Below are positions 476-45,879 of a stretch of 50,858 nucleotides of DNA, piece after piece. The notes below the pieces were generated by a model. The model saw nothing but the letters and a program-made list of their open reading frames with translations. It ran no database searches and had not been told where the DNA came from. The number at the start of each line of letters is the position of its first letter. The first letter of the stretch is position 1. The DNA lies in the IMG/VR virus record IMGVR_UViG_3300028392_001917, positions 1-50,858 of that record, one strand, 5' to 3'. Source of the stretch: a virus. Made by a program: the position numbers and the translations under genes.

Positions 476-1252
476 TTACACTCCATTCCACATAGCGTAT
501 AATCCAGTTCTTGATCCATGCTCATCGTATATTTTACTCAGTTCTGTTCGTACTGCTGGAGCAAGTTCTCCCGATCCTGGTACAACATCAAAGGCAAAAT
601 AATGTATACCGGGCGGTTTACTTGGCCCAATATATTGACCGCCCAGTCGTCCCATGATAATATCAATGTCTTTTTCGGCCCATTCTGGATTATCAAATCG
701 AGCCTCGTTTATCATAACATACCCTTTGATGTCAACACCGGGAATGGAGGCCAGACTCAGCCAGTTTTGGCGGCCACCGGGTGTTTGACTACGACCAGCA
801 AGCAAAGGTCTTTTAAGTATGCTCAACGCAACACCATACATGGATTTGGCCACGCCTTGTCCACGATAATCTTCATCTACAGTTATGGTATCAACTTGTA
901 GGGCACCCTTTAATGGAAAATTTGGAACATCTTCCAACACCAGTTTTCCGATCAAAAACCCTGGACCATCTTCACTTTGATTGCGTTCCCAATCTCGCAG
1001 TCTCCAGGCAAATTCTTCGTCATCTTCATCACGCATTTTGACTGGTTTTGGTGTGGTATTAGCACTATCCCATAGTTTGATAATAATACCATCTTCCATA
1101 TGATTGGCTTCTGTGCTGTACATAAACGCATTTGTGCCAGGAAGTTTTTTGATATTTTTGTCACCGGCACCTATTCGCAATGATTTTTTACCACCAGTAT
1201 ATTCATTGCCGGGCATTCGATCAATTTCGCTTAGGAATTCTTGTGCTCTCAT
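476..1252 (-). CDS. GNAT-like acetyltransferase with T4-internal-protein-like N-terminal tag
   Basis: 258 residues. Residues around 120-145 read VDTITVDEDYRGQGVAKSMY, the acetyl-CoA-binding motif A of GNAT N-acetyltransferases (R-G-Q-G-V-A). The first nine residues, MRAQEFLSE, resemble the capsid-targeting propeptide of T4 internal proteins, cleaved after (L/I)xE by the prohead protease. The same kind of start occurs at 4914, 41445 and 45879. The late-promoter-like box AATAAATA ends only four bases before the ATG, with no ribosome binding site between. Inference: an acetyltransferase packaged in the capsid and delivered into the host. The GNAT call is good; packaging is a prediction. Confidence 0.68.
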   Translation of the reverse strand: MRAQEFLSEIDRMPGNEYTGGKKSLRIGAGDKNIKKLPGTNAFMYSTEANHMEDGIIIKLWDSANTTPKPVKMRDEDDEEFAWRLRDWERNQSEDGPGFLIGKLVLEDVPNFPLKGALQVDTITVDEDYRGQGVAKSMYGVALSILKRPLLAGRSQTPGGRQNWLSLASIPGVDIKGYVMINEARFDNPEWAEKDIDIIMGRLGGQYIGPSKPPGIHYFAFDVVPGSGELAPAVRTELSKIYDEHGSRTGLYAMWNGV

Positions 1253-1259
1253 CTTGTAT

Positions 1260-2087
1260 TTATTCGGTTATTTTTGTATTCAAGTTGTTAAATCTTTCAT
1301 ACAATTCTTCTTTGGTCAGTGAACAAGCAGTCTTTTTTCTTGAATTTTGTATGTTGGGTATATACTCAAGATTTACTATGTTTCCTATTATTTCAGCGGG
1401 AATTTTATTCTTAAACCCTTCGTGACACGAAAATTTATGATCCAATGAGTAGGAAGTTTTATTTCTACTATGACCTCGTAAATTATAGTTAGGCAAGGTT
1501 TCAATTAGTTGTTGATTAGTATAGTGCCATACCTTTCGTCTATACAGATAAAATTCTTCCATTTGTTTTTCGGGTGTCCATCTACCAGCATCTTCATTTT
1601 TCTTTCTTACGCTGTCTATAATCTCTTTTGATTTCAACGGATGGTTAACCCCATAGTTGTTAGTGTAAGTTTGTTGTCTTTTAGTAAGACTCTCTTCGGT
1701 CTTCATATTATGGTCTACGCCATATTTTTTTATCATCCCATCTTTTCTACGCTGTATGCCTAATAGTCCACTAAAAGGATTAGGCAAGACTGACAACTGA
1801 TATTTTGAATTACAACTATATGAGCAGAACATACCCCGATACTCACCTTTGAATCTTAGCGGTTTATCACATTCGGGGTGTTTACATTTAGCAGGATAGT
1901 CCTGCAGGCCATTTAGTATCCAATAAATTCGTTCGGATAACTTTTCAGACTGACATTTGTTAGTAAAATGTAAGATATTATTTTTAACTTCTGCGGATAG
2001 GCTTTTGAATTTTCCTGTGGATATCTTTCCATCTGATCCATATATAGTATTTGTTAGATAATTTTTAAGTTCTAGTAAGTTCATCAT
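1260..2087 (-). CDS. Free-standing HNH-type homing endonuclease-like protein
   Basis: 275 residues. A zinc-ribbon-like Cys cluster (CKHPECDKP followed by FCSYSC) sits near residues 70-95. Two copies of a K-Y-G-V-x-H/N-x-(M/P)K(T/S) segment follow, and near the C-terminus SLDHKFSCHEGF and NLEYIPNIQNSRKK fit the His-Asn-Lys pattern of an HNH nuclease. This layout is typical of mobile phage endonucleases. The start is one of two adjacent ATGs (2087 or 2084). A CATAAATA late box lies at 2093-2100, and the stop codon lies inside the next gene's late box. It probably spreads by cutting related phages lacking the gene. Confidence 0.7.
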   Translation of the reverse strand: MMNLLELKNYLTNTIYGSDGKISTGKFKSLSAEVKNNILHFTNKCQSEKLSERIYWILNGLQDYPAKCKHPECDKPLRFKGEYRGMFCSYSCNSKYQLSVLPNPFSGLLGIQRRKDGMIKKYGVDHNMKTEESLTKRQQTYTNNYGVNHPLKSKEIIDSVRKKNEDAGRWTPEKQMEEFYLYRRKVWHYTNQQLIETLPNYNLRGHSRNKTSYSLDHKFSCHEGFKNKIPAEIIGNIVNLEYIPNIQNSRKKTACSLTKEELYERFNNLNTKITE

Positions 2088-2132
2088 ATTATATTTATGC
2101 CTACGATGTAATATGTGAACATATATCGTGTT

Positions 2133-2882
2133 TTAGTCGTTTTCTTTAGTCCAGGTGATTATTTCCCAGCGACCATCGTGATGTTCAACTAAGGCTGTGC
2201 AGGATTCTACCCAGTCGCCATCGTTCATGTAGATGATACCGTCTATTTCTTTTATTTCAGCCAAGTGAATGTGACCTACAATCACACCATCAAAGCCACG
2301 TTTCTTACAGTATGCGGCTAGATTACGTTCAAAGTGGAATATAAAGTCCACTGCTTTCTTTACTCTTGTTTTGAGATATTGACTAAGACTAAAGTACCCA
2401 AAACCAAAGCGATGGCGTACCCAATTGAATTTGCTATTAAGCGATAAAATGACATCATATGCTTTGTCTCCTAAAAAACTTATCCACGGTGCCAGTCTTG
2501 TTATACCATCAAACAAGTCTCCATGTACTACAAGATAATGTTTACCGTCTGCACCTATATGTTCAGTCTGATTACATATCTCAACCAGTCCAAAACTGAA
2601 CCCATATGGAATCATGGGTCTTAAAAATTCGTCATGATTACCAGCCACATATACCACACGAGTGCCCCGTTTAGCATGACCGAGAACACGACGGACCACA
2701 TTAGTGTGGCTCTGTTTCCATCGCCATTTGTTTTGTTGGATTCTCCAGGCATCAATTATATCTCCTACAAGGTATAGTGTGTCACAAGAGTTATGTTTAA
2801 GAAAATTGTTAAGCTGCTCTGCTTTACAATCTCTTGTACCGAGATGAACGTCGCTAACGAAGATGGATCGGTATGTCTTCAT
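2133..2882 (-). CDS. UDP-2,3-diacylglucosamine diphosphatase-like metallophosphoesterase
   Basis: 249 residues with the full calcineurin-like motif series in order: SDVHLGTRD, VGDIIDAW, AGNHDE, VVHGDLFD and VGHIHLAE. The closest known architecture is the LpxH/LpxH2 family, which hydrolyses UDP-2,3-diacylglucosamine to lipid X in lipid A synthesis on the inner membrane. All metal ligands appear present. A box AGTAAATA ends five bases before the ATG, so a late, nearly leaderless transcript is possible. In a phage it may alter lipopolysaccharide or act on another phosphodiester. The fold is certain; LpxH substrate specificity is an inference. Confidence 0.8.
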   Translation of the reverse strand: MKTYRSIFVSDVHLGTRDCKAEQLNNFLKHNSCDTLYLVGDIIDAWRIQQNKWRWKQSHTNVVRRVLGHAKRGTRVVYVAGNHDEFLRPMIPYGFSFGLVEICNQTEHIGADGKHYLVVHGDLFDGITRLAPWISFLGDKAYDVILSLNSKFNWVRHRFGFGYFSLSQYLKTRVKKAVDFIFHFERNLAAYCKKRGFDGVIVGHIHLAEIKEIDGIIYMNDGDWVESCTALVEHHDGRWEIITWTKEND

Positions 2883-2926
2883 ACCAATATTTACTAGTGT
2901 AATTAATTTTTAATATTACAATAGTA

Positions 2927-3241
2927 TTACAAATTTAGTTTTTTCTTATCAAGATTCAATACTTTAGATTCGTCACCTACACCTAATACACAACCAACAC
3001 CTGGAGTAAATTGTATGAGTGTCCAAGTACCTGATTCTTTATTAATCAATAACATAAACTTAGTCTTTTCTTCGGAGCCACCCCATACAGGTACTTCTTT
3101 ATAGTCGCCGTTCATTAACTCGTTGACTATTTTTTTAGTATCGTCGCAGACCAAAGTTTTTTCTATTTTAAATGATGTAGACTGTGCTGTTGCCACTGTT
3201 GTTAATAATGTGGCAACCAGTATGGTTATCAATTTTTTCAT
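2927..3241 (-). CDS. Small secreted protein of unknown function
   Basis: 104 residues with a Sec signal peptide: MKKLITILVATLLTTVATAQ, cleavage probably after TAQ. The mature part has two well-separated Cys residues that could form a disulfide. No family recognised. The ATG shares one base with the stop of the upstream gene (TAATG), so it is translationally coupled to the 557-aa protein gene. Confidence 0.65.
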   Translation of the reverse strand: MKKLITILVATLLTTVATAQSTSFKIEKTLVCDDTKKIVNELMNGDYKEVPVWGGSEEKTKFMLLINKESGTWTLIQFTPGVGCVLGVGDESKVLNLDKKKLNL

Positions 3242-4914
3242 TATACGCCTTCTGGTGGAATTTCTTGACCCATTGGTATTTTAGCACCAATTTGTTTTGT
3301 TTGATTTTGTATGCCAGCAGGAACCGGTGCTTTAGTTTTAGTAGGTGCTACTGGTTGGGTAGGTGATACTTCTGGTTGAGCAGGTGTGGGAGGTTGTTGT
3401 TCTACTTTTTCAATATAATTTGCAATGTCAGAAATATCTTTTAGTAAGCCGCCCATTGCGGTCATATTTCTAACTGTGCCGTCTTTAAATTGAGATTTTA
3501 ATTCTACTAACTTATTACCAGCATCTTTTCTACCTGCTGGAACAAATCTTTTACCAATAGTTCCTACAGGATATCCATAAATTGAAATAATATGTGCCTT
3601 ACCATCCATATTTTCAACAACAACTAATTGTAATTGTCTCATTGCTTTTTCAAATTCTGGACCAAAACTTAATTCTCTAAATGCTTTCTTGTCATCAGGA
3701 TCAAGAATAACCATTTCAACACCCTCTTCTTTTCTTGTAAGGTGTTGTAATAATCCCTGATATATATCTTCAACCAACCCCGGTTGATCAGATCTTGCTT
3801 TTGCTTTTAGAGTTTTGGCTGCATCTTGGTAAGCAGCAAACATTCCGCTATTAAAATTGTGTTGTTTTTCCTCGTCTGATCCACGAGCTCCTTTTGCAAT
3901 TTCATAAAAGTATTTTTTAATTGTCGGAGATAGTGCAACATTAAATGAACCAAAGAACTCAGTAACATGTTCAAAATTAGCACCAACCACTTGTCCAAAC
4001 TGTGCCACATCGCCTGCCTTAATACTTAATAGGCGTTTAGCAAGAGGTTGCCCATCAACTAAAATTTTTAAATCAACTTTAGTTGTACTTTGATTTGCTT
4101 TTTCTCCACCGTCACTGATAACATCTACCCTGTTGTTTCTTGGATCATCCTGGGCTACTTTTATTGCATCCGCAACACGTTTAGAAGTATTAGCATATTC
4201 TACAGCAATTCTTGCTCTTCTTTCTATTAAGTCTATAGATTCCTGGGGCACTTTATAATCTTGTAGAGTTTTACGACCTTCGCCTAACCAAGCATAAAAG
4301 ATTTTTTTATCTAAAAAAGGAATAGACACTTTAAATTCAAGTGTATCTTTGCCTGCCGCAACACTAATAACTCCACCATTTTGAGCTAGTTGTTTGCCCA
4401 TATCTGCTAAGTTTTTTTCAGTAATGTTACCACCATTACTAACAAATTTAGCCGCTACAGCACATCCTATTAAGGCTTCTGATACATTGCCCATATTGGG
4501 TTTTATTTCGCCTTTAATTTTTTCATCTTTATAGATGTTGTTTAATCTTACATTATCAACTACTTCTCCCGTTGGTTCGTTGGTGTCGTCATCTACAACA
4601 TTAACTGAAAATAAAACATTGGACCAATTATCAGTTTTTAATGCACGTTTAATACTTGCTTTTAATGTGTTTGGGTCAGCAATTGTTCCTAAAAAGTTTG
4701 TTCCCGGGTTAGGAGCAATTCCTTTCTGTTTATTTGCAGGTCTAAACCCAGTATTAAAAGCATATACTTGTCCGGGTGACATACCGTCTCCTATATTGTC
4801 AAGGAACGGATTTAAATATTTTTCTATGGTTCTCGGAGCCGTCCAGTCTTTGCCTTGCATAAGACCTTCAAGTACGGATGACTTTGATTCGGTGATAAAC
4901 TCTCTTGCTCTCAT
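3241..4914 (-). CDS. Probable PD-(D/E)XK nuclease with capsid-targeting-like N-terminus
   Basis: 557 residues. The start MRAREFITES matches the T4 internal-protein pattern ending in (L/I)xE. A helix with Glu about residue 146 (VSEALIGCAVAAKF), then TTKVDLKI (Asp about 281) and LLSIKAGD (Lys about 299), fit the E...D...(x)xK layout of restriction-endonuclease-fold nucleases such as HpaII-like enzymes. The last 70 residues are Pro/Gln/Thr-rich. A perfect late box, TATAAATA, ends seven bases before the ATG. Inference: a DNA nuclease packaged with the genome and released on infection. No family name is certain, and a structural role is the main alternative. Confidence 0.55.
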   Translation of the reverse strand: MRAREFITESKSSVLEGLMQGKDWTAPRTIEKYLNPFLDNIGDGMSPGQVYAFNTGFRPANKQKGIAPNPGTNFLGTIADPNTLKASIKRALKTDNWSNVLFSVNVVDDDTNEPTGEVVDNVRLNNIYKDEKIKGEIKPNMGNVSEALIGCAVAAKFVSNGGNITEKNLADMGKQLAQNGGVISVAAGKDTLEFKVSIPFLDKKIFYAWLGEGRKTLQDYKVPQESIDLIERRARIAVEYANTSKRVADAIKVAQDDPRNNRVDVISDGGEKANQSTTKVDLKILVDGQPLAKRLLSIKAGDVAQFGQVVGANFEHVTEFFGSFNVALSPTIKKYFYEIAKGARGSDEEKQHNFNSGMFAAYQDAAKTLKAKARSDQPGLVEDIYQGLLQHLTRKEEGVEMVILDPDDKKAFRELSFGPEFEKAMRQLQLVVVENMDGKAHIISIYGYPVGTIGKRFVPAGRKDAGNKLVELKSQFKDGTVRNMTAMGGLLKDISDIANYIEKVEQQPPTPAQPEVSPTQPVAPTKTKAPVPAGIQNQTKQIGAKIPMGQEIPPEGV

Positions 4915-4921
4915 AATAGTA

Positions 4922-4929
4922 TATTTATA
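4922..4929 (-). promoter_or_regulatory. T4-type late promoter box TATAAATA
   Basis: Exact match to the T4 late promoter consensus read by the gp55-type sigma factor. It ends seven bases before the ATG at 4914 and contains the TAA stop codon of the upstream bilin reductase gene. In T4, transcription starts about six bases after the box, which would leave almost no 5' leader. Confidence 0.75.
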
Positions 4930-5596
4930 CTACTTCTGGAAACAATACTTCACGTACAAATCTCTTGATAACAGGTTCTGCCACACCCATGCTAACCATA
5001 CTGCGTATAACATGTGGATTCTGCTTTTGATAGTGACAATAACGATTCTGCGCCATATGATAATCCGCTGCATCTTGCTGCGTATTTCCTACGTTTTTTA
5101 CATAATAATCTAAACTATCCAGGGCTAATTGACATAAATCGTCGAGTTCTTTGCCTTCTTGTACATTACCCGCAGCAACCATGTTATCGCTAAAGATGTT
5201 ACGTGCCCATTCCGGAAGTTCTCTAGACTTTTGCCATCCGTATTTTTTAGTCTCAATACCAAACCAACGCATCATGTCATGGTTAGAATCACCTGCTGAA
5301 CTGAAATCACAGAAAGCACCTGTGATCTTATTAGGTCCACATACAGCATCAAATCCCCAAATTGGACTTGGATCGTTGAAATGTGGGAATATGGTACAAT
5401 GTAATATATAGATTTTGTGAGTTTCTCTATTATCTACAATTTCTATATGTGCTCTACGATAACGTGGACTTGACCAAAGTTGATTATGCCAGTTATAGTC
5501 TGTGCCCACGGTGCTATCTATAGGTTCACCTGTAGTATTGAATCGATCTTCAATCTGTTTGGCTAATTGCTCAATTTTGTTCCAAACTACTGTCAT
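4925..5596 (-). CDS. pcyX: Ferredoxin-dependent bilin reductase (PcyX/PebS-like)
   Basis: 223 residues. The segment HCTIFPHFND, PIWGFDAVCGPNKITGAF and CDFSS is the signature of ferredoxin-dependent bilin reductases (PcyA/PebA/PebB/PebS/PcyX), with the conserved catalytic-region Asp at GFD (about residue 83). These reduce biliverdin IXalpha to phycobilins. PcyX is the variant described from oceanic phages outside cyanobacteria, paired with a heme oxygenase as here. The ATG lies inside the end of the heme oxygenase gene (26-base overlap), so the two are co-translated and act in sequence: heme to biliverdin to bilin. The subfamily label rests on context, not alignment. Confidence 0.85.
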   Translation of the reverse strand: MTVVWNKIEQLAKQIEDRFNTTGEPIDSTVGTDYNWHNQLWSSPRYRRAHIEIVDNRETHKIYILHCTIFPHFNDPSPIWGFDAVCGPNKITGAFCDFSSAGDSNHDMMRWFGIETKKYGWQKSRELPEWARNIFSDNMVAAGNVQEGKELDDLCQLALDSLDYYVKNVGNTQQDAADYHMAQNRYCHYQKQNPHVIRSMVSMGVAEPVIKRFVREVLFPEVV

Positions 5597-6116
5597 ATGA
5601 TTCCATTATTTTAATTGCCCATTCAAAGGCTATATTGGCTTCAACAGCCATATCGTCTGACAACATGGTACGTACAGTTTTAATTAACTCGGCACGATCT
5701 TCAAACTCTAAATGTGTATGTGGTGCTTCAACAATCTTCTTGATCATTTGTCCACCATGCAAGTCGCCCATGTGCCATGTATAAAGATGTGCCATAACAC
5801 GAGTAGGATCACCTAATGTTCGTATATAACTAACATACTCTTTGGTCACTTCTTTATAGGTATTGAAACTGCCTACAGGTTTATCCATGGCTTCGTAATC
5901 ATCCATGATTAATCCTGCACGTTCAAAGCCCGGCGGCAATGCATTTAACAATCCTGCTTTACGAGCAGCATGTTCAATTTCTTTATACCAAAGTTGTTTT
6001 TGATATGTAAAGTCTACCCATACATCATAGGGTAGAGTTTTGGCAAATACCGCTTTCATAAAAAGGGTATCTTCCGCTTTTTGATGTTTATCAGCGGTTA
6101 AATCTTTTAGGCTCAT
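5571..6116 (-). CDS. Heme oxygenase
   Basis: 181 residues. The proximal heme-ligand region is visible as TADKHQKAED (His11), and the distal helix motif as HMGDLHGGQMI (about residues 116-125; usual form GDLSGGQ). The enzyme opens heme to biliverdin IXalpha, CO and Fe2+ using ferredoxin-type electrons in the cytoplasm. Product and neighbour agree: the bilin reductase gene overlaps its 3' end. It follows clpS after nine bases. Released iron could also feed the diiron ribonucleotide reductase and rubrerythrin encoded in this window (inference). Confidence 0.92.
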   Translation of the reverse strand: MSLKDLTADKHQKAEDTLFMKAVFAKTLPYDVWVDFTYQKQLWYKEIEHAARKAGLLNALPPGFERAGLIMDDYEAMDKPVGSFNTYKEVTKEYVSYIRTLGDPTRVMAHLYTWHMGDLHGGQMIKKIVEAPHTHLEFEDRAELIKTVRTMLSDDMAVEANIAFEWAIKIMESYDSSLEQN

Positions 6117-6125
6117 AGTAGTTCC

Positions 6126-6431
6126 TTATTCGGGTTCTACTTTAATTATCAAAGGATACCCCTGTGCTCTGGCTAAATTGGTTCCGTCAACAGCTTTTTG
6201 TTCTGCTACTTCAAAACTATAAATTCCTGCCACAGCACTACCTTTATTATGTATTGCCAGAGTTAATGCAATAGCAGACTTTTCATTATGCTTGAATATT
6301 GACACAAGCATGGCAATTACAAATTCCACAGAAGTTTGATCATCATTACACACAATGACTTTATACTTGCTGGGTTCTTTAAGTTTGGCAGTAGTCTTAG
6401 ACTTTTTGTCTACAATGATATCAGTGGTCAT
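6126..6431 (-). CDS. clpS: ClpS adaptor of the ClpA/ClpAP protease
   Basis: 101 residues. A short charged leader is followed by the ClpS core: YKVIVCNDDQTSVEFVI, with the N-D-D-x-T motif that recognises N-terminal destabilising residues, then IHNKGSAVAGIYS and AEQKA. ClpS hands N-degron substrates to ClpA. No ClpA is seen in this window, so the phage protein probably redirects the host protease. It lies between hsp20 and the heme oxygenase gene in one transcription unit. Confidence 0.9.
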   Translation of the reverse strand: MTTDIIVDKKSKTTAKLKEPSKYKVIVCNDDQTSVEFVIAMLVSIFKHNEKSAIALTLAIHNKGSAVAGIYSFEVAEQKAVDGTNLARAQGYPLIIKVEPE

Positions 6432-6468
6432 AATCTTATTTTATAGAGGGGGCCGAAGCCCCCAAACT

Positions 6469-6903
6469 TTATTCGCCCTTGAGTTTAAGGACACGTGGTT
6501 TCAAAGCATCAGGAACGATACGCTTTAATTTAATGGTAAGCACACCATTCTTGATAGTTCCATCTCCAACTTCCATATGTTCAGCTAATGTCCAGCTACG
6601 TGTAAAGTCTCGGAATGCAAGTCCACGATGTAAAAATTCAGCAGTTACATCATTGCTTTTATCTCGAATGCCTTTGACAATGAGTTGATTTTGATCAATC
6701 TCAACTGTAACTTCGTCCTTAGCAAACCCTGTAACAGCAATTTCAATCTCGTAAGAGGTGTCGTCGTGTTTAATAATGTTGTAAGGGGGATAGTTGTCTT
6801 TAAGTTGATTTGCAAAACGATGTTCAAAATCTTCAAACATTGTATCAAATCCCAGAAGTGCTCTGTTGAGAGCGTTGGTGTCGAAACGTACTAATTGTGT
6901 CAT
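6469..6903 (-). CDS. Small heat shock protein, Hsp20/IbpA family
   Basis: 144 residues with the alpha-crystallin domain of IbpA-type chaperones: YEIEIAVTGFAKDEVTVE, LIVKGIRD, FLHRGLAFRDFTRSWTLAE and NGVLTIKLKR. It binds unfolding proteins and holds them for DnaK. It has its own sigma70-like promoter (6987-7016), a GGGCATAGTGCCC inverted repeat shared with dnaK exactly 31 bases before the ATG, and an AAAGGAG ribosome binding site. T4-like phages often carry such a protein. ClpS follows directly. Confidence 0.93.
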   Translation of the reverse strand: MTQLVRFDTNALNRALLGFDTMFEDFEHRFANQLKDNYPPYNIIKHDDTSYEIEIAVTGFAKDEVTVEIDQNQLIVKGIRDKSNDVTAEFLHRGLAFRDFTRSWTLAEHMEVGDGTIKNGVLTIKLKRIVPDALKPRVLKLKGE

Positions 6904-6934
6904 AATTTTTCTCCTTTAAAAGTAAGACAATTTT

Positions 6935-6947
6935 GGGCACTATGCCC
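6935..6947 (-). promoter_or_regulatory. Inverted repeat GGGCATAGTGCCC in the hsp20 leader
   Basis: A perfect 5-bp stem with a 3-base loop (GGGCA TAG TGCCC), separated by 31 bases from the hsp20 ATG. The identical 13-mer occurs 31 bases before the dnaK ATG (8921-8933), and both leaders share AAGTAAGA and CTCCTTT (as + strand) between repeat and start. It may be a repressor operator or an RNA element controlling both chaperones. Confidence 0.6.
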
Positions 6948-6951
6948 TAAA

Positions 6952-6976
6952 GTGGGACCCTTAATAGGTGTCCCAC
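6952..6976 (-). other. Hairpin between dnaK stop and hsp20 leader
   Basis: GTGGGAC and GTCCCAC form a 7-bp stem around an 11-base loop, in the transcript between dnaK and hsp20. It lacks a U-tract, so it is not a standard terminator. It may stabilise the dnaK 3' end or form part of the hsp20 leader structure. Confidence 0.4.
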
Positions 6977-6986
6977 AATATTATTT

Positions 6987-36125: not shown

Positions 36126-36127
36126 AA

Positions 36128-37852: not shown

Positions 37853-37891
37853 AATAATATCCCTCGCTATGAGATATTTATCCTGATCAGG

Positions 37892-38593: not shown

Positions 38594-38602
38594 ATAGTGT
38601 TA

Positions 38603-38988: not shown

Positions 38989-40404
38989 TTACTTTGCCAA
39001 TGAGGACATGATGTTATGTGATTCAGCTAGTTTGCGAGCAAACTTGCTTTCACGCATTTCACGTCCGGTTGTTCCCATACCTGCTGCTGCATCTGCTGCA
39101 CCAAATTCATCACCAGCTGGTTCTGGATTCATCTCGTCAGGTGCGCTCATATCCATACCTGGCTCTGCTGGCATTTCTGGTTCCATACCCATTGCTGCAT
39201 CTGGAGTGGCTTCACCTGCTAGTGTTGCAACTGCTCCACTTACTGCTTCACGTTGTTGAGTTAGTGTCTCAAGTGTGGCGGATAGTGCTGGTCCAACTGC
39301 GGCCTTGAATGCTTCTGCTTCTTGTGCTCCAAAGTCTGCTTTAATTGCATCAGCTAATTCAATCATTGTTTTAGTTTGATATTGACCAACACGTTGCATC
39401 CAACTTGTAAAATCATTAACCATATCACCGGCTGCGGTAATAGCCTTGGCTTTACCTTCTTCATCTTCTTGTAGTAAGAATGCCAGACTTTCATTAACAA
39501 AACGTACATTGTGTTTGAAGTTGCTTTCTTCTAATGTACCAGCCTTGGCCTTGTCAGCACGGATCTTACCTGCTACACGTTCACCAGCTTCTTTACTACC
39601 ATAACGCTTGCCTGCATCTTTGGCAATCTTTTTAAACATCTTACCTGGTTTGCCTTCATCCTTGCCTTCATACATGCCCATGCACTCTTTGCAATCACAA
39701 TCCTTAGGATGCTTACCGCCTTCCTTAACTGGAGTACCTTTTTTATCTTTCAATTTCATTGTATTTGCTGGGCGACGTTCGTCTTCTGGCGGCTTCTTAT
39801 AATCAGATTGATTGCCATAAGATTTGCCTTGAACTCGGGTACTTGGCAAATCAGCCATTTTAACTTCTGCAACTTTCTTTTCTTTTGAAGATTTTGTCAA
39901 ATCGTTTTTACCTTTGCCATCTGCTGCAAAAGCTGGGACACTTTTACCATTGACTTTTTTCATTGGCATTGAGCCTTCTTTAAAATTATCACTAGTTGCT
40001 TTAGCAATGGCTTTCTTTTTAGGAACACCACCAGCTGTCATGCGAGCAACTTGAACATCGTCAAAGTCTTTCTTACCATCACCAGTTAGGTCTTTTTTCT
40101 TACCTTCGCTTAGTTCCATCATTTTGTCACGTAGTTGTTTGATATTTTCGCCTAGCATTTCTTTAATCCTTGTATTAAGCAAGTCCAACATGGCCTTGTC
40201 TTTTTGGTATGTTTCGTTGGTTAGCAAGTCATTGATACCTGCTGAGCCTTCCTGTTGGAAAACACGGGTACGTAATTTATTACGCATGTCTTCTAGTTGT
40301 TCTCTTGAATAGTTTTCCAACTTAACTCGTACACCGAACATTTTGTTCATGTTTTCGTTGAGTTTGGCACTTGTTAGCGGAGAGTTAAAATCACTTGTTT
40401 TCAT
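38989..40404 (-). CDS. Virion core-like T4-family protein with EF-hand-like motif
   Basis: 471 residues. The N-terminus MKTSDFNSPLTSAKLNENMN includes an LxE site (KLNE) and is followed by helical NYSREQLEDMRNKLRTRVFQ. A calcium-binding-like loop, DLTGDGKKDFDDV, lies about residue 107; then Lys/Gly-rich regions with C-D-C-K-E-C and an acidic Met/Pro/Ala-rich tail. This charged, low-complexity composition suits an internal core or scaffold protein. A CTAAATA late box precedes it. Confidence 0.55.
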   Translation of the reverse strand: MKTSDFNSPLTSAKLNENMNKMFGVRVKLENYSREQLEDMRNKLRTRVFQQEGSAGINDLLTNETYQKDKAMLDLLNTRIKEMLGENIKQLRDKMMELSEGKKKDLTGDGKKDFDDVQVARMTAGGVPKKKAIAKATSDNFKEGSMPMKKVNGKSVPAFAADGKGKNDLTKSSKEKKVAEVKMADLPSTRVQGKSYGNQSDYKKPPEDERRPANTMKLKDKKGTPVKEGGKHPKDCDCKECMGMYEGKDEGKPGKMFKKIAKDAGKRYGSKEAGERVAGKIRADKAKAGTLEESNFKHNVRFVNESLAFLLQEDEEGKAKAITAAGDMVNDFTSWMQRVGQYQTKTMIELADAIKADFGAQEAEAFKAAVGPALSATLETLTQQREAVSGAVATLAGEATPDAAMGMEPEMPAEPGMDMSAPDEMNPEPAGDEFGAADAAAGMGTTGREMRESKFARKLAESHNIMSSLAK

Positions 40405-40434
40405 AGTTAATCCCGGAAAGATTGATAATATTAT

Positions 40435-40908: not shown

Positions 40909-41101
40909 CTAGTTTCTTTACCATTGTTCGGTTATCATTACTTATCGAGTAAATTCCCTTGCGGACAAGGTTTTGAGCCAACCAAAGGTCGTGCTCATCC
41001 AAACTGGTAATAGATACATTATCCTTATGTCTATTGACAAAAGATTGTTCTTCATTGGTAAGAACAATATGCATCCCTGATAATAACTGCCCTATTTTCA
41101 T
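40889..41101 (-). CDS. Small hypothetical protein
   Basis: 70 residues. MKIGQLLSGMHIVLTNEEQS starts like the tagged proteins but has no Glu at the cleavage position. The middle EEQSFVNRHKDNVSITSLDE and LVRKGIYSI resemble a winged-helix fragment. The ATG overlaps the upstream stop as ATGA. Confidence 0.55.
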   Translation of the reverse strand: MKIGQLLSGMHIVLTNEEQSFVNRHKDNVSITSLDEHDLWLAQNLVRKGIYSISNDNRTMVKKLDETTTA

Positions 41102-41445
41102 ACTCTAGGTGGTTGCTGCATTTGCTGCTGCATCTGTTGTTGTTTTTGTTTTAGACCTACGATCTGTGCTGCAATCTTATCAAGGTCTGTCATTGTGGTT
41201 TGCATACCTTGTTGTAGTGCAGGATTAGGTGCTGGTGCTGTAGTAGGTGCTCCAGTAGCAGGAGCAGGTGTTGTACCAGTAGCAGGAGCAGGTTGTTGTC
41301 CAGGAGTAGCAGGAGTTTGTCCCGGAGTCACTGGTGGAGTTGTTCCTGGTTGATCAGATGGTTGATTTGGTGGGATGTTGGGTTTAGCAATAGGTTGTGT
41401 GCTTGAACCAAAAGGCACTGCTTCTAGTAATTCTTGTATTTTCAT
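41098..41445 (-). CDS. Pro/Gln/Thr-rich protein with capsid-targeting-like N-terminus
   Basis: 115 residues. The start MKIQELLEAVPFGSS fits the T4 internal-protein tag ending in LxE. The body is low-complexity Pro/Thr/Ala/Gly, with a Gln/Met-rich helical end. Possibly a packaged or core protein. Overlaps the 70-residue gene by four bases. Confidence 0.5.
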   Translation of the reverse strand: MKIQELLEAVPFGSSTQPIAKPNIPPNQPSDQPGTTPPVTPGQTPATPGQQPAPATGTTPAPATGAPTTAPAPNPALQQGMQTTMTDLDKIAAQIVGLKQKQQQMQQQMQQPPRV

Positions 41446-41446
41446 T

Positions 41447-41767
41447 TTATTTTAGGATACTTAATAATGTATCGCCATGTGCTGTAATCCATCCTAATGC
41501 TGCTATTGCGCCTGCACTAAGATAAACCCATTTTGTTTTGAACTGCTCAAGGTCTTTGATCTTACCTGCTAATTCACTGTGCTGATCAATATTGGCCTTA
41601 TGCATTACTTCCAGTTGATCCATAATGCTATCACGAGTTTTATCTAGACAGTTATGCATTTCTTTGACATCTACTTTAAGATCATCGATCTTTTCTTCAA
41701 TGTTATCAACTTTTGTTTCTAATACGCTAACACGTTCTGGAACGGTTGCTAATGCCGATGTGGCCAT
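41447..41767 (-). CDS. Coiled-coil protein with C-terminal membrane helix (holin/XhlA-like)
   Basis: 106 residues. About 70 residues of heptads (VSVLETKVDNIEEKIDDLKV) are followed by a hydrophobic segment WVYLSAGAIAALGWITAHG at the C-terminus. This layout is shared with XhlA-type phage membrane proteins. A lysis role is possible; a virion protein is an alternative. Start preceded by AGGAG. Confidence 0.58.
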   Translation of the reverse strand: MATSALATVPERVSVLETKVDNIEEKIDDLKVDVKEMHNCLDKTRDSIMDQLEVMHKANIDQHSELAGKIKDLEQFKTKWVYLSAGAIAALGWITAHGDTLLSILK

Positions 41768-41814
41768 CTCAAGTTTCTCCTTTAGGGTGTACGAATTTCC
41801 AACTATTATGTTGC

Positions 41815-42240
41815 CTAAATTGTGCCTTTGATTGCCTTGATGATGGTATTCTTGGAAGCGCTATCTATTAGTTCGAAAATAGCCTTCTCGATATTTATCG
41901 TTTCAGTTAACTTTTCAACAACAGGTACACCATGTACATCTTCAAGTAAGCAGCCTATATCGTTATCACCTTTAGCATATGCTCCTGATCTATCAGGGCT
42001 AAATCTAAATGTCCATACAGCTTGTTTGCCTTTGTACTTAGAACCAAATCCTAGATCCTTAACATCTATGACTTGTTTCTCAGGTGAGAAATCATAGGAA
42101 ATAATTGATCTAAGTTCTGCACATTGTTTTAATGTTGTAAAGTTTCTATTTTGATCTATTTCAAGTTGTGTACCTTGATTGGGTCTTGATACTCTTGTGT
42201 TAGTAATATCTACCAGTGTTTTTATTTCAATTAGTTGCAT
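41815..42240 (-). CDS. Conserved T4-like hypothetical protein
   Basis: 141 residues. NFTTLKQCAELRSIISYDFS and FRFSPDRSGAYAKGDNDIGC are conserved-looking blocks of a soluble alpha/beta protein. No function known. A CATAAATA late box precedes it with a short leader. Confidence 0.58.
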   Translation of the reverse strand: MQLIEIKTLVDITNTRVSRPNQGTQLEIDQNRNFTTLKQCAELRSIISYDFSPEKQVIDVKDLGFGSKYKGKQAVWTFRFSPDRSGAYAKGDNDIGCLLEDVHGVPVVEKLTETINIEKAIFELIDSASKNTIIKAIKGTI

Positions 42241-42274
42241 AATATACCTATATAATATATTTATGTCGTAAAAA

Positions 42275-42296
42275 AAGGAAGTTAAAAAACTTCCTT
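42275..42296. terminator. Intrinsic terminator, T-rich on both strands
   Basis: AAGGAAGTT-AAAA-AACTTCCTT, perfect 9-bp stem. On the minus strand it follows the 42316 gene and is followed by TTTTTT. Confidence 0.82.
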
Positions 42297-42315
42297 CTTT
42301 ATTCTTTAATTTATA

Positions 42316-42732
42316 TTAAAGAGCAACTCCACGGATCTCTGCTGCTACAGTAGTATTAGCATTGTCATATCCTTGCAATGCACCTGTAACAGTGGCCATA
42401 GCAACAATAGCTTGTTGGCAAGCAAGAGCAAAAGTTTCAGTATCATCATCACCGTCATAGTCTTGTGTACCAAATGCACCACCTAATGCTGCTACAGCAA
42501 TAGATAATGTTGTGTTACTAGATGAATATCTAGGAGTACCAATGATTTCAATACTGGCTATCTTAGCAATAGCATCTAATGCTTGTACCACTGGACTTTG
42601 AACGCCTGCAACTCTTCCTAGGTTATCAGTTAAATCTGCACTAGGAAATGTAATTGTTACAAACTGTAGTGTAACACCATTTTTATATGCTGGTGCAATT
42701 AACGTTTCATGTGTTTTTGTAATTCCTGTCAT
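42316..42732 (-). CDS. Small Ala-rich virion-type protein, paralogue of 42821 gene
   Basis: 138 residues from the ATG at 42732 (CGGAG upstream; an earlier Met would lack a ribosome site). APAYKNGVTLQFVTITFPSA, SPVVQALDAIAKIASIEIIGT and GGAFGTQDYDGDDDTETFAL align with the next gene. Small, Ala-rich and separately terminated, like an abundant head or tail decoration protein. Function unknown. Confidence 0.65.
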   Translation of the reverse strand: MTGITKTHETLIAPAYKNGVTLQFVTITFPSADLTDNLGRVAGVQSPVVQALDAIAKIASIEIIGTPRYSSSNTTLSIAVAALGGAFGTQDYDGDDDTETFALACQQAIVAMATVTGALQGYDNANTTVAAEIRGVAL

Positions 42733-42778
42733 AATAAATATCTCCGATTGTTTATATTTAGCAAGTTTACTCAAAGGA

Positions 42779-42801
42779 AAAGGGAGTTAAAAACTCCCTT
42801 T
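42779..42801 (-). terminator. Intrinsic terminator after the 42821 gene
   Basis: AAAGGGAGTT-TTT-AACTCCCTTT on the minus strand, a 10-bp stem with a T-rich flank. Confidence 0.8.
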
Positions 42802-42820
42802 AATATCACTAATTTTTAAA

Positions 42821-43231
42821 TTATAGTGTAATTGCTGCTACTGCACAGCTAGCCAAGTTCACACCTTGATGTGTACCGGCAGCCTGTACTAAACGTGTCA
42901 AGTAAGCAGCAAAATCTTCGCTGTCTGTACCATCCCACTTAGCTGTACCAAAGTCGCCACCAGCTGCGGCTACTGCGAAACGCATATCACGTCCAACACC
43001 ACCAATGCTTAGATTTTGTACTGTACCAAAAATCTCAATGCTAGCAGCTTGAGCAATTGCGTCAAACGCAACTACAACAGGGCTACGTGGAGTACTTGGA
43101 TAGTTTGTATAGTCTGTGTCTAATTTAGCAGCCACTGTGCTTGGAAATGTTAGTGTGAACCACTGTAGACTTACACCATTCTTATAAAACGGTGCTACGA
43201 TCGTTTCATTCTTTTTTGTTAATGTTGCCAT
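42821..43231 (-). CDS. Small Ala-rich virion-type protein
   Basis: 136 residues. APFYKNGVSLQWFTLTFPST, SPVVVAFDAIAQAASIEIFG and GGDFGTAKWDGTDSEDFA match the gene at 42316 across the whole length. An AGGAG site precedes it. It reads from its own late promoter within a 50-base repeat and ends at its own terminator. Function unknown. Confidence 0.68.
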   Translation of the reverse strand: MATLTKKNETIVAPFYKNGVSLQWFTLTFPSTVAAKLDTDYTNYPSTPRSPVVVAFDAIAQAASIEIFGTVQNLSIGGVGRDMRFAVAAAGGDFGTAKWDGTDSEDFAAYLTRLVQAAGTHQGVNLASCAVAAITL

Positions 43232-43251
43232 TATATTTTCTCCTGATCTTG

Positions 43252-43301
43252 TTTTTTAAGTTTCCCTATGAAACTTTGTATGCTTTTATTTATCAGTTTT
43301 G
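43252..43301 (-). repeat. 50-bp direct repeat, copy A: late promoter and 5' stem-loop
   Basis: Identical to 43769-43818. On the minus strand it contains a GATAAATA late box, then a hairpin AAGTTTC-ATAGG-GAAACTT and an A-rich run before the ribosome site. It serves the 42821-43231 gene. Confidence 0.85.
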
Positions 43302-43309
43302 GTCAAAAA

Positions 43310-43333
43310 GAAAGGGGATAATAATCCCCTTTC
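43310..43333 (-). terminator. Intrinsic terminator after the 43351 gene
   Basis: GAAAGGGGAT-TATT-ATCCCCTTTC, 10-bp stem on the minus strand followed by TTTTTGACC. Confidence 0.8.
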
Positions 43334-43350
43334 AATATGTCTACTTAGTA

Positions 43351-43746
43351 TTAAGCAGAGAATGTGCCTGCGTTTGTAAGTGTTGTATAAGTATTTACAG
43401 TTAATTTGTCAACTGTAGTAATACCTGCTAGAACAACCGCATCCTTCAATGCACCATATGCACCGGAAGTAGTTGCACCAGCACCAGCATTGAAGCTAGG
43501 GCCATCAACGATACATGTGAAGTAATGAGCATCTGTACGAGCGCCAAGCCATACAATGCTGCCCAATGATTCTACAGCCTCAACAGCTTTAGTATAACCA
43601 CCTTTAGTGATTGCACCAGTAGTGCCGCTAACTGTATCTGCTGTGAAAGCAGCAGAATCGGAATCAGTAATCTTAATTACTAGTGGGGAATAACCGTAAA
43701 ATGCACCGGCTGCTACAGCGCCGTGTTTTCTATCTAATGAAGCCAT
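43351..43746 (-). CDS. Small Ala/Gly/Thr-rich virion-type protein
   Basis: 131 residues. Faint resemblance to the two genes below: AVEAVESLGSIVWLGA against AFDAIAQAASIEIFG, and a Gly/Ala loop followed by ALKDAVV. It has the same 50-bp promoter/leader repeat and its own terminator. Probably an abundant virion protein; function unknown. Confidence 0.62.
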   Translation of the reverse strand: MASLDRKHGAVAAGAFYGYSPLVIKITDSDSAAFTADTVSGTTGAITKGGYTKAVEAVESLGSIVWLGARTDAHYFTCIVDGPSFNAGAGATTSGAYGALKDAVVLAGITTVDKLTVNTYTTLTNAGTFSA

Positions 43747-43768
43747 TTTTAAATCTCCTAATCTTATT

Positions 43769-43818
43769 TTTTTTAAGTTTCCCTATGAAACTTTGTATGC
43801 TTTTATTTATCAGTTTTG
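43769..43818 (-). repeat. 50-bp direct repeat, copy B: late promoter and 5' stem-loop
   Basis: Identical copy of 43252-43301, including the GATAAATA box and the hairpin, upstream of the 43351-43746 gene. Identity over a non-coding stretch suggests recent duplication or strong selection on this leader. Confidence 0.85.
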
Positions 43819-43842
43819 AAAAAAACTTATATAACCAGACGC

Positions 43843-44142
43843 TTAATCGTCGTTTTTAACATCACCGTCGATGACTTTTAGATGTTTGGCAACTTCTTTG
43901 TTATCTCTAAGTCTACGTATACTGCGTGTAAACTTGCTAGGATCGCTGCCTTTGATGCTGTTAATTAGTCTACGTTCTAACTCATAGGCATCTTCGGTAG
44001 AGAAATTTTCTCTGATTAGAGTTAATAGGTTAATAGCGCTATCAATTACATGAGTAGCCCTGGCTTCTATGATGGCCTCACTGTTCTTCTTTTCCGTTAT
44101 GGAATTGAGTTCTTCTAATAGGCTACGTGTTGTTCGTTTCAA
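43843..44142 (-). CDS. Conserved T4-like small protein
   Basis: 99 residues, charged and helical: MKRTTRSLLEELNSITEKKN and VIDSAINLLTLIRENFSTED, then LERRLINSIKGSDPSKF. This pattern recurs in marine T4-like phages; role unknown. An ACTAAATA box and an AAGG site precede it. Confidence 0.62.
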   Translation of the reverse strand: MKRTTRSLLEELNSITEKKNSEAIIEARATHVIDSAINLLTLIRENFSTEDAYELERRLINSIKGSDPSKFTRSIRRLRDNKEVAKHLKVIDGDVKNDD

Positions 44143-44205
44143 GATGTCATCCTTGTTATATGATATTTAGTAGATTGTAGCACATATGTTTGGAAAAATA
44201 AAGTC

Positions 44206-44235
44206 TTGCGAAATTGTGCAGTTGCAGCATAAAAT
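44206..44235 (+). promoter_or_regulatory. Sigma70-like promoter for the + strand small-protein cluster
   Basis: TTGCGA, an 18-base spacer and TAAAAT on the + strand, 61 bases before the first ATG at 44296. Confidence 0.5.
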
Positions 44236-44295
44236 AGATAAGTATATTAGTAGAACTACTGAGTCTCTACAATATTTTAACAACAAGGAGAAAAT

Positions 44296-44472
44296 ATGTT
44301 AAACCGATTAGCTGAATACTTCCACAAGATGTTTCAGAATTTTGATAAGCCACAAACTTATGGAACAGCATTAGAAGCATACATTATGCGTAATTCACCA
44401 CAGAGCGTAGGTGATGTTGATAGATTAACTCGTCAGTTTGATCTAAGTCAAGTAAATCATAGAGGATGGTAA
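44296..44472 (+). CDS. 58-residue small protein
   Basis: ATG at 44296 with AAGGAG seven bases upstream. MLNRLAEYFHKMFQNFDK begins an amphipathic helix, and the end has DVDRLTRQFDLSQVNH. No family recognised. First of three closely packed small genes. Confidence 0.66.
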   Translation: MLNRLAEYFHKMFQNFDKPQTYGTALEAYIMRNSPQSVGDVDRLTRQFDLSQVNHRGW

Positions 44473-44474
44473 TC

Positions 44475-44612
44475 ATGAGAGTACTAAAAGCAATCTACAA
44501 TTTTTTAGGTGAAGTAGGCCGTGTACGTGCTGCTACACATCTAGCACACAAGGGCGATCATGCAGGTGCTCAACGAATCATGTCAATGAAAGAATTTAAG
44601 GGGTGGATATGA
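44475..44612 (+). CDS. 45-residue small basic protein
   Basis: ATG at 44475, two bases after the previous stop. FLGEVGRVRAATHLAHKGDH then AGAQRIMSMKEFKGWI: a short basic helical protein of a type often found in phages. The stop overlaps the next ATG (ATGA). Confidence 0.65.
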   Translation: MRVLKAIYNFLGEVGRVRAATHLAHKGDHAGAQRIMSMKEFKGWI

Positions 44613-44767
44613 ACATCGAAGAAATTTTTACCCTACACTTTTTGTTTATGATATCACTTATGGTCATACACTTTGTCAAAGAAACATTGACCAACTGGTG
44701 GCCTGTTTCTAATGAAGAGTGGGAGAGATTAAATTATCCTGAACGTTTTAAGAAAAAATGTTCATAA
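44609..44767 (+). CDS. 52-residue membrane protein
   Basis: ATG at 44609 overlapping the previous stop. One hydrophobic segment (FTLHFLFMISLMVIHFV) near the N-terminus, then a charged tail. Likely an inner membrane peptide; function unknown. Confidence 0.62.
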   Translation: MNIEEIFTLHFLFMISLMVIHFVKETLTNWWPVSNEEWERLNYPERFKKKCS

Positions 44768-44776
44768 CAGTTGCAA

Positions 44777-44784
44777 TATAAATA
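44777..44784 (+). promoter_or_regulatory. T4-type late promoter box TATAAATA (+ strand)
   Basis: Exact consensus, 47 bases before the ATG at 44832, with AAGGA before the start. It makes the two genes downstream late. Confidence 0.72.
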
Positions 44785-44831
44785 ACAATGCAGTACAATT
44801 ACTGCTTACACACATACACAAGGAAATAAAA

Positions 44832-45113
44832 ATGTTTAATAAACTATTCGCACCGTATCTAACACTTGAAGCACATATTGATGCTTTCCAACAAACCAAG
44901 CGAGGCCTAACAGATAAGATCATTACAGATCCTACGCTGAACAAGGCCGCACACGAATACATCGATGCTCAGACTGAATTTGCTAAAATGTTAGCACACA
45001 ACTTCACTGACATCGCCAAGTATTCTGTAGACTCTATTACTAATAAATGGTTTCCTAAGAATGAAGAAGTAGCCCAGGCTAAGGCTACACGTAGCAAACG
45101 TGCTACTGCCTAA
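44832..45113 (+). CDS. Phasin-like helical protein
   Basis: 93 residues, all helical: LEAHIDAFQQTKRGLTDKII, then YIDAQTEFAKMLAHNFTDIA and a basic tail. The pattern (aromatic-charged helices near 90 residues) resembles small phasins, which coat polyhydroxyalkanoate granules, but this is weak. A virion or DNA-associated role is an alternative. Confidence 0.5.
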   Translation: MFNKLFAPYLTLEAHIDAFQQTKRGLTDKIITDPTLNKAAHEYIDAQTEFAKMLAHNFTDIAKYSVDSITNKWFPKNEEVAQAKATRSKRATA

Positions 45114-45138
45114 GACATACACACACAAGGAGAAAATT

Positions 45139-45408
45139 ATGTCAACAATTAAAGCACCTGAAGTTAAATTCAACAAGAATGGTTATGAAATCCGTACAGA
45201 CATTTTAGATATGGCCAAAGGTCTTGTCAGTGAAGAATATCACAGCAAGTTTCGTGGCTGGGAAATGTCAGTTCAGCGTGATGAAAAGACTGGTCAAGTA
45301 GTTACTCGAGTAGATATGCCAGAGTTTCCAGGACTTGATAAAGTTCTTGAGACAGCAGAAAAAATGTATTCATTTGTCAATGCTGGTAGTACTACATCTA
45401 AAAAATAA
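45139..45408 (+). CDS. Conserved T4-like small protein
   Basis: 89 residues from the ATG at 45139 (AAGGAG upstream). MSTIKAPEVKFNKNGYEIRT, GWEMSVQRDEKTGQVVT and PGLDKVLETAEKMYSFVN form a conserved-looking alpha/beta protein. I associate this pattern with marine T4-like phages; function unknown. It ends at the intrinsic terminator. Confidence 0.65.
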   Translation: MSTIKAPEVKFNKNGYEIRTDILDMAKGLVSEEYHSKFRGWEMSVQRDEKTGQVVTRVDMPEFPGLDKVLETAEKMYSFVNAGSTTSKK

Positions 45409-45438
45409 TACTAAAAAATATATAGGACGTAGTCCAGG

Positions 45439-45466
45439 AGCCCCGGCATTAGATCGGGGCTTTTTT
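45439..45466 (+). terminator. Intrinsic terminator of the + strand cluster
   Basis: AGCCCCG-GCATTAGAT-CGGGGCT followed by TTTTT on the + strand. Confidence 0.8.
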
Positions 45467-45474
45467 ACAACTGA

Positions 45475-45879
45475 TTAGATTGGGCGGCTTTTTAAGAACT
45501 CAGGATATTGCTTGTTGAAGTTTCTCATTATAACACCGGCAATTTCATGTGCTTGATTTTCTTCAGGACTACCAGTGGCACCACTTTCATCATTGAGTTC
45601 ATTTCTGATATCTTGTCTATAATGTACAAGTTCGTGTGCTACAGTTCTAAGTATATCCACGGGATGACGATTCAGTATAGCAACGTGTAAAATTTTATCT
45701 TCGTTGTTATACATACCAAAACTTGGTTGACTACCTGATTTTACTTCAGGTTCAAAGTCCATCTTAGGTAGTCTATCAATCTCTAAGATCTCCATGGCCA
45801 AGGGAAGAAACTTTTTAAACATATCAACGAATGTTGCTCGAGATTCCTTGCCCTCAAATAATAGATCTTGTATCTTCAT
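45475..45879 (-). CDS. Zinc metallopeptidase-like protein with capsid-targeting-like N-terminus
   Basis: 134 residues. The HExxH motif lies in TVAHELVHYRQD (about residue 86), followed by EENQAHEIAG, which supplies a candidate third zinc ligand. The start MKIQDLLFEG matches the LxE-ending tag of T4 internal proteins. An ACTAAATA late box ends six bases before the ATG with no ribosome site. Inference: a packaged protease delivered into the host. Substrate unknown. Confidence 0.66.
   Translation of the reverse strand: MKIQDLLFEGKESRATFVDMFKKFLPLAMEILEIDRLPKMDFEPEVKSGSQPSFGMYNNEDKILHVAILNRHPVDILRTVAHELVHYRQDIRNELNDESGATGSPEENQAHEIAGVIMRNFNKQYPEFLKSRPI

Follow-up and report, generated by a model that had tools for sequence, protein, structure and literature searches.

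The closest described systems to the one considered here are the internal head proteins of phage T4. The T4 prohead protease gp21 is described as cleaving after L/I-X-E, and for the internal protein IPIII ten N-terminal residues are described as sufficient for incorporation (PMC9026906); T-even internal proteins are described as diverse, with the capsid-targeting sequence (CTS) alone conserved, and the CTS as perhaps loading various proteins (PMC3012670, PMC9026906). One E. coli strain is reported on which T4 requires ipIII, whose product works without the CTS if made in the cell (PMC9391042). As one CTS with diverse bodies has been published for T-even phages, the principle is not new. The present analysis concerns a 50.9-kb fragment of a freshwater-type phage (IMG/VR record IMGVR_UViG_3300028392_001917, positions 1 to 50,858; the whole stretch is called the window below), in which four open reading frames (ORFs) begin with a similar short N-terminal tag ending in (L/I)xE. 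This N-terminus of eight or nine residues is most probably a propeptide for capsid targeting, of the kind found on the T4 internal proteins and gp24, and an exchangeable set of proteins probably enters the host cell with this phage.

The four ORFs, all on the minus strand, were found with the places and N-termini given in a first-pass annotation of this DNA; gene calls were crude (ATG starts, longest ORF first). They encode a GNAT-like protein of 258 residues (476-1252, assigned by ORF call, Pfam and fold search; tag MRAQEFLSE/I at 1226-1252, the slash marking the predicted cut), a 557-residue cargo protein behind a bilin reductase gene (3241-4914, phrog_3560 and slot survey; tag MRAREFITE/S at 4888-4914), a Pro-rich protein of 115 residues (41098-41445, ORF call and family of relatives; eight-residue tag MKIQELLE/A at 41422-41445) and an HExxH metallopeptidase-like protein of 134 residues (45475-45879, phrog_87 and HELVHYRQ; tag MKIQDLLFE/G at 45853-45879). 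The search expression given in the annotation, M(K/R)xx(E/D)(F/L)(L/I)xE, describes the proteins starting at 1252, 4914 and 45879, but not that at 41445, which is one residue short. The (L/I)xE cleavage consensus is present in all four, at residues 7-9 or 6-8, and the N-termini are of the CTS type (N-terminal, about ten residues, a hydrophobic pair followed by xE), with a length here of 8-9 residues. The family of the 41445 protein, which comprises nine distinct members, one of them identical (L004), keeps the eight-residue form (MRISELVE, MRIQELLE, MKIHELVE), and nine-residue tags (MRISDLISE, MRAYEFIQE) occur on proteins whose body start resembles that of 41445.

A search of all gene starts found the strict nine-residue expression in 3 of the 75 called window genes, against 0.0028 expected (Poisson 3.6e-9), the expected values being computed from 323,343 internal windows. 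Because the window itself supplied the motif, relatives offer the fair test: in 15 related contigs (RNR-linked), 15 of 1,688 genes begin with the expression against 0.063 expected, some of these 15 genes being orthologues of each other. None of 656 genes of the cyanophages ACG-2014f and B23 carries it. The back-translated pattern M(R/S)AxEFIxE matched at least 120 IMG/VR stretches, compared with 9 for the same letters in permuted order. The sign of a gene start, a stop codon no more than 20 codons upstream, was seen for 118 of the 143 viral matches listed (those in frames of at least 60 amino acids or running off the locus) and for 12 of the 93 matches listed in GTDB bacterial genomes; three of these bacterial-genome loci (L319, L322, L414) have boxes resembling late promoters and seem to be phage DNA that was binned with bacteria. 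The alternative that the motif reflects chance, or that a few genes inherited their N-terminal domains from a common ancestor, draws on its shortness and its definition after inspection; two tagged proteins compared by blastp are little alike except in the tag, and the permuted-pattern count and the enrichment at gene starts led us to drop this alternative, whose probability is negligible.

A second search pattern comprised MKIxE with leucine/phenylalanine pairs, and loci were taken from the matches listed. The 399 environmental loci taken (the window included, bacterial-genome and cyanophage loci left out) hold 303 distinct tagged frames. In 264 of these a stop lies no more than 25 codons upstream; the other 39 lack one, in some cases just because the open frame is longer. 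The 264 frames form 73 body groups under loose linkage and 115 under strict linkage; blastp at E 1e-4 or 1e-5 underlies the grouping, which may therefore separate remote relatives. The tag itself served to pick these loci, and the unselected material consists of the 15 relatives (G001-G015), the window and the slot survey described below. Clusters of three or four tagged genes, some with a 4-nt overlap, were observed in L270, L273, L223 and L435, and L189, L191, L233 and L261 contain adjacent pairs of tagged genes for proteins of 124-135 residues with similar C-termini ending in FKGYKR/K or alike; a tblastn search with one 135-residue protein of such a pair gave no isolate match.

A late-promoter-like TAAATA box ends 4 nt 5' of the ATG at 1252 (1257-1262, minus strand) and another 6 nt 5' of the ATG at 45879 (45886-45891, minus strand); a late-promoter-like TATAAATA box ends 7 nt 5' of the ATG at 4914 (4922-4929, minus strand), and no TAAATA box was found within 28 nt upstream of the gene at 41445. 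TAAATA lies within 28 nt upstream of 14 of 20 nine-residue-tag genes and of 14 of 29 when eight-residue ones are included, versus 220 of 1,734 other genes (p 4.5e-6 for 14/29 against the others), and a Shine-Dalgarno-like site precedes 4 of the 29 tagged genes versus 702 of the 1,734 others. Given a T4-like late promoter, the mRNAs would be nearly leaderless, and the motif might then serve expression rather than sorting, such late mRNAs needing favoured first codons; the boxes 4-7 nt before the ATG and the scarcity of Shine-Dalgarno-like sites agree with this. However, the tag residues are encoded by many synonymous codons in the 115 cluster representatives (some codons being fixed by the search patterns), and therefore selection acts on the peptide. 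Moreover, a box at 4-7 nt also precedes more than 100 untagged genes, which lack the motif, and the box is absent in 6 of the 20 nine-residue-tag genes and in 15 of the 29 overall. A DNA-level or translation motif was dropped on the codon variation, and a role in expression is very improbable. A pattern joining promoter and tag matched just five stretches.

In the T4 record, ipII and ipIII start with MKTYQEFIAE and gp24 with MAKINELLRE, and the gp23 site reads ..SFLTE/AE. The two environmental tag flavours resemble the internal-protein and gp24 starts, that of gp24 being nearly the M(K/R)IxELLxE flavour, although gp24 is a shell protein; its cut site was placed here by consensus, and its propeptide is described as of the 10-20 residue kind (PMC5694885). 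As in IPI, IPII and IPIII, a short N-terminal propeptide ending in (L/I)xE stands before diverse bodies, and IPIII positions 7, 8 and 10 (PMC9026906) have counterparts at positions 6, 7 and 9 of the window tags. Unlike the T4 internal proteins, the window tag has 8-9 rather than 10 residues, opens with M(K/R)(A/I)x(E/D) and lacks a counterpart of position 4, the tagged genes are spread over the genome, and the bodies include recognisable enzymes and fall into the 73 groups mentioned. Alt, a head-packaged ADP-ribosyltransferase delivered with the DNA (PMC9026906), opens with MELITELFDE, which is a poorer fit, with no (L/I)xE at residue 10 and I-T-E at 4-6. The ten-residue pattern, applied to six isolate genomes, matched three times each in T4 (ipII, ipIII and gp61.1), S-SRM01 and B23 and twice in Xanthomonas phage X1, where one match sits inside the scaffolding gene, and gave no match in Mendera and ACG-2014f; its reversed control gave one match in X1 and three in B23. 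The B23 starts (MKTYREFISE, MKTYSQFITE, MKKYLEFIIE) appear to bridge the T4 and window tags, and the matching proteins of S-SRM01 and B23 include one cytidylyltransferase each. Both are Synechococcus phages, and S-SRM01 has starts such as MKSFKQFISE and MKNFHQFITE. The nine-residue pattern gave one match in five isolates (X1), equal to one for its reversed control.

The position of the tag glutamate also coincides with that of a capsid cleavage site. Environmental capsid proteins read ..LENTRKYLAE/SATAGATSAGNVATLNRV.. and alike, that is LxE/SATAGATSAGNVA, and small tagged proteins of about 60-110 residues continue after the tag with the same stretch (tag-E/SATAGATSAGNVA), as in MKISELLGE/TATAGATSAANIG, MRANEFIKE/TASAGATTSGNIA and MKIREIVE/SATAGATSAGNVA; other small proteins carry the capsid-like stretch after a longer leader. 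In these small proteins the tag Glu thus stands where capsid proteins have their cleavage Glu, and what follows is a copy of the mature capsid N-terminus. When nine of these arm mimics were compared with the capsid protein of G001, the score was reached by 0-3 of 1,000 shuffles for six of them. The shared register ties the tag Glu to a known gp21 site.

T4 gp61.1 (54 residues, NC_000866 18966-19130, L728:367-531, minus strand; MKTFKEFIKE/DMVAGDSGGNPENISIGTTSGAVVNKGP..) has the architecture of the environmental arm mimics, a CTS-like start with a copy of the mature gp23 N-terminus. It aligns without gaps with gp23 57-93, and its tag Glu stands on gp23 Glu65, the gp23 propeptide being reported as 65 residues long (PMC5694885). 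Stripped of its tag, the gp61.1 body scores 69 against gp23, whereas the best of 2,000 shuffles reaches 52, and its scores against gp22, gp20, gp18 and gp21 were reached by 5, 15, 264 and 75 of 300 shuffles, respectively. With its CTS-like start and in-register copy of the gp23 cleavage site and mature N-terminus, gp61.1 looks like an internal head protein; in the literature on gp61.1, with subscription papers mostly outside its scope, no discussion of the likeness to gp23 was found.

The prohead protease gp21 (PF03420) occurs in 10 of 14 contigs of at least 100 kb with a pattern match, namely in all ten of at least 151 kb and in none of the four of 101-137 kb; in nine of the ten gp21-bearing contigs a match is at a gene-start-like place, and that of L500 is far inside an open frame. 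PF03420 was also detected in two of the 15 RNR-linked relatives (G001, G003) and in all three cyanophages. It could be argued that the motif targets the membrane, the tail, a host protease or something else and resembles gp21 substrates by convergence, since the tag is short and has low confidence in both AlphaFold 2 (AF2) models made of the window proteins (residues 1-23 and 1-28 under a pLDDT of 50). The register with the capsid cleavage site, the likeness to the T4 internal-protein and gp24 starts and the gp21 co-occurrence speak for the capsid and make another target very improbable; the same three lines of evidence support the assignment of the tag to the T4 type by the first-pass annotation.

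The modular use of the tag can be followed at one gene position. The 557-residue cargo gene of the window starts 10 bp past the stop of the bilin reductase gene (4925-5596, minus strand; Pfam Fe_bilin_red, E 2.4e-19), which is the fixed upstream neighbour of this slot, and a survey anchored on the bilin reductase covered 72 loci. In the 31 near loci (L570-L600, 49-79% identity) a slot gene was present in 27, 6-10 bp past the stop; no such ORF was found in L574, L583 and L594, and L593 ends there. All 27 slot genes open with MR.. and have TAAATA close upstream, and 19 of the 27 proteins fit the relaxed tag expression. An ORF in range was found in 16 of the other 41 loci, mostly of at most 48% identity (with 51% in L609 for a part of the protein and 58% in L641 over 38 residues), and none was tagged. 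Taken together with the window, G006 and G014, the survey yielded 24 distinct slot proteins, forming eight groups by blastp (at least 100 amino acids aligned) or seven by phmmer; the largest blastp group, which includes the window protein, has 11 members, with reported pairs from 23% to 87% identity. Several slot proteins share a C-terminal stretch NQ.K.IGAKIPMGQE, with middles otherwise unrelated. The slot thus appears to swap bodies while the place, the promoter box and the tag stay. Together with the 73 body groups, these seven to eight slot groups substantiate the proposal that one tag is set before diverse bodies. As a separate observation, the window protein 3241-4914 and L151:8474-10126, which occupy the same slot with unrelated bodies, have about 30 C-terminal residues in common (IQNQTKQIGAKIPMGQE), a second constant end. 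Upstream of the slot, heme oxygenase and bilin reductase genes (4925-6903) follow Hsp20-like and ClpS-like genes, named by eye; this gene order recurs in relatives, and such cassettes are already known from aquatic phages (PMC11480375).

The four window bodies are unrelated to each other, as had been noted: one is GNAT-like (weakly), one is the 557-residue cargo protein, one is Pro-rich and one is metallopeptidase-like. The acetyltransferase likeness of the 476-1252 protein is weak, with Pfam Acetyltransf_1 at E 0.0039 and 17.9 bits, under the 20.7 cut-off, and an AF2 model (pLDDT 69) whose top PDB matches in Foldseek are nearly all acetyltransferases, the best with E 3.4e-3 and all with low TM-scores; a tblastn search of isolates gave no match. 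In its family of six, E5 and E9 are invariant and the tag flavour varies between orthologues (MRAQEFLSE, MRIKELLAE, MRITELLAE, MRASEFLTE, MKYSEIISE, MKISEFLSE). The 557-residue protein matches phrog_3560, of unknown function (E 2.9e-18), and had no Pfam match and, for its AF2 model (pLDDT 71), no PDB fold match in Foldseek; a search with that single sequence found no relatives. Across ten aligned sequences E146, D281, S297 and K299 are invariant (an E...D...SxK pattern); as no nuclease profile or fold was matched, the label of probable nuclease, including a PD-(D/E)xK nuclease, is unsupported. The 45475-45879 protein matches the phrog_87 metallo-protease profile (E 1.4e-5) and contains HELVHYRQ, and in Pfam it matches DUF3920 alone, under the cut-off; its motif and family profile agree with the prediction that it is zinc-peptidase-like. 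Members of this HExxH family in the fetched loci, many of which were chosen by the tag, are tagged by the relaxed expression in 34 of 51 cases, and members are also fused to, or adjoin, other tagged genes; the B23 homologue opens with MNYKQFLRE, and that of S-SRM01 has no tag. In L123:4353-6014 and L155:367-1353 a HAD-like stretch (by eye) is fused to the metallopeptidase family behind a start MRA(R/K)EFS without Glu, which appears to be a decayed or partial tag.

The Pro-rich protein at 41445 belongs to an eight-residue-tag family without effector features and does not look like an effector; the idea of the first-pass annotation that all four window proteins are effectors was given up on this account. 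Two further window ORFs match virion structural profiles, namely a TTG-started ORF at 43843-44142 (LKRTTRSLLEELNSITE; phrog_11854), with LLEE near its start, and a 471-residue protein at 38989-40404 (phrog_14154), with several internal LxE sites, which is a candidate core protein.

The wider repertoire was examined in 100 tagged proteins, made up of the four window proteins and 96 from elsewhere, in most cases a single one for each group. Pfam gave 22 families with few members each, some under Pfam cut-offs: Glyco_hydro_19 with four members, DUF6321 with three, DUF6934 and Acetyltransf_1 with two each, and single members that include ADPrib_exo_Tox, Peptidase_M78, SprT-like, Amidoligase_2, NT5C, ParB_N, Kinase-PolyVal and SLT; at least 71 of the 100 had no Pfam match at E 0.001. 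The PHROGs matches, with 25 of 56 families listed, add endolysin, metallo-protease, kinase and ParB-like names, and tail-fibre names for three members, and a PADLOC scan of the 100 proteins gave no match. For a tagged GH19 protein, the 25 isolate matches listed (of 1,600 records) all start at query residue 38 or later, behind the tag. The tagged GH19 muramidase-like protein L194:2992-3612 has a Tat-like signal right after the tag (TAT_signal E 0.0096, under the cut-off), so tag removal would uncover a second sorting signal.

These bodies bear on a further explanation, which accepts the capsid-targeting propeptide but takes the bodies for structural or DNA-condensing head parts, or enzymes acting in the prohead, rather than injected host-directed effectors. 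The Pro-rich 41445 family, the capsid-arm mimics, the Lys-rich or Gly-rich bodies among the tagged proteins, one tagged protein whose relatives bear the label 'structural protein' in three of the cyanophage records listed, and the tail-fibre name for 3 of the 100 all suit it. On the other hand, ADPrib_exo_Tox, GNAT, NT5C and Amidoligase_2 and, more weakly, ParB_N and Kinase-PolyVal have no evident structural role, and the variable bodies of the slot suit an arms race better than architecture; we consider this explanation less likely than not. For the enzyme-like bodies only, an injected, host-directed function is plausible.

Under the propeptide interpretation, the tag would bind the prohead scaffolding core and bring the attached body inside; a gp21-type prohead protease would cleave after (L/I)xE, the tag would depart and the body would remain in the head. 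Enzyme-like bodies, here the GNAT-like and metallopeptidase-like ones, would most likely be ejected with the DNA and be active in the host at once, and the ADP-ribosyltransferase, kinase-like, ParB-like, GH19 and SLT muramidase-like bodies of other tagged phage contigs would be ejected likewise. The cargo position behind the bilin reductase gene would exchange bodies, with the promoter box and tag constant. We infer packaging, cleavage, ejection and activity in the host alike.

Several observations weigh against this interpretation. In the nine-residue form nothing evidently corresponds to IPIII residue 4, to which importance for targeting is ascribed. The gp21 gene that the first-pass annotation led one to expect was found in G001 and G003 but not in the window, a 50.9-kb fragment, for which the same search also gave no match in the controls, and PF03420 was not found in 13 of the 15 RNR-linked relatives, whose linear contigs measure 46-141 kb and are probably incomplete; the gp21 co-occurrence covers only large contigs that bear the pattern. 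In five large genomes chosen for a pattern match, the strictly tagged genes number just 2, 3, 5, 1 and 0. Some tagged-family bodies occur without the tag in cyanophages, as does the ACG-2014f relative of the 557-residue protein. The Glu is displaced in 8 of the 27 slot proteins, which start with MRAREFLPLLVE, MRARDFILTE, MRSREFLTLLE (three times), MRFSEFSTPLEE, MRFSEFSTPIEE and MRATEFLLTPFKSTIVE. Three of the nine arm mimics are not clearly above shuffles (14, 29 and 163 of 1,000), Foldseek at E of at most 0.001 gave no match for either AF2 model (GNAT-like and 557-residue), and a structural role is conceivable for 41445 and for other bodies rich in Pro or Lys.

Two other known systems are comparable. 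Polyvalent proteins of phages and conjugative elements (PMC5512222), predicted to enter with the DNA, are described with overlapping domains (ART, GNAT, kinase, metallopeptidase, ParB-like, muramidase), whereas the tagged proteins are mostly separate and smaller, each with its own short tag; membership of this class was rejected for the window, where none of the four proteins has more than one named domain. The ejection proteins of phiKZ and SPN3US are packaged in the head and cut after Glu by a gp21 relative, as proposed here, but their propeptides are for the most part long, and the cleavage specificity is A-x-E or S/A/G-x-E (PMC5694885). What looks new is the occurrence of the 8-9 residue form in environmental phages, with its scale and range of enzymes, as well as the slot with its swapped bodies and the mimics of the capsid arm together with gp61.1; no discussion of the tag in environmental phages was found in the literature, a weak negative, as subscription papers were mostly outside its scope.

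As a broader proposal, to which we give an even chance, T4-like phages at large may share a modular delivery code, in which a capsid tag of 8-10 residues precedes cassette-swapped enzymes, with dedicated variable slots, and may also share an unrecognised miniature class, gp61.1 included, that joins the tag to the capsid cleavage site and mature arm, perhaps occupying the binding place of the arm or tuning head maturation. A readable sorting signal would provide, from sequence only, a list of proteins that environmental T4-like phages probably bring into the cell, and the role of internal head proteins would become testable across many phages. The slot would represent a locus of body swapping, as expected of an arms race, and for T4 gp61.1 there would be a new hypothesis, testable in a phage that laboratories routinely use.

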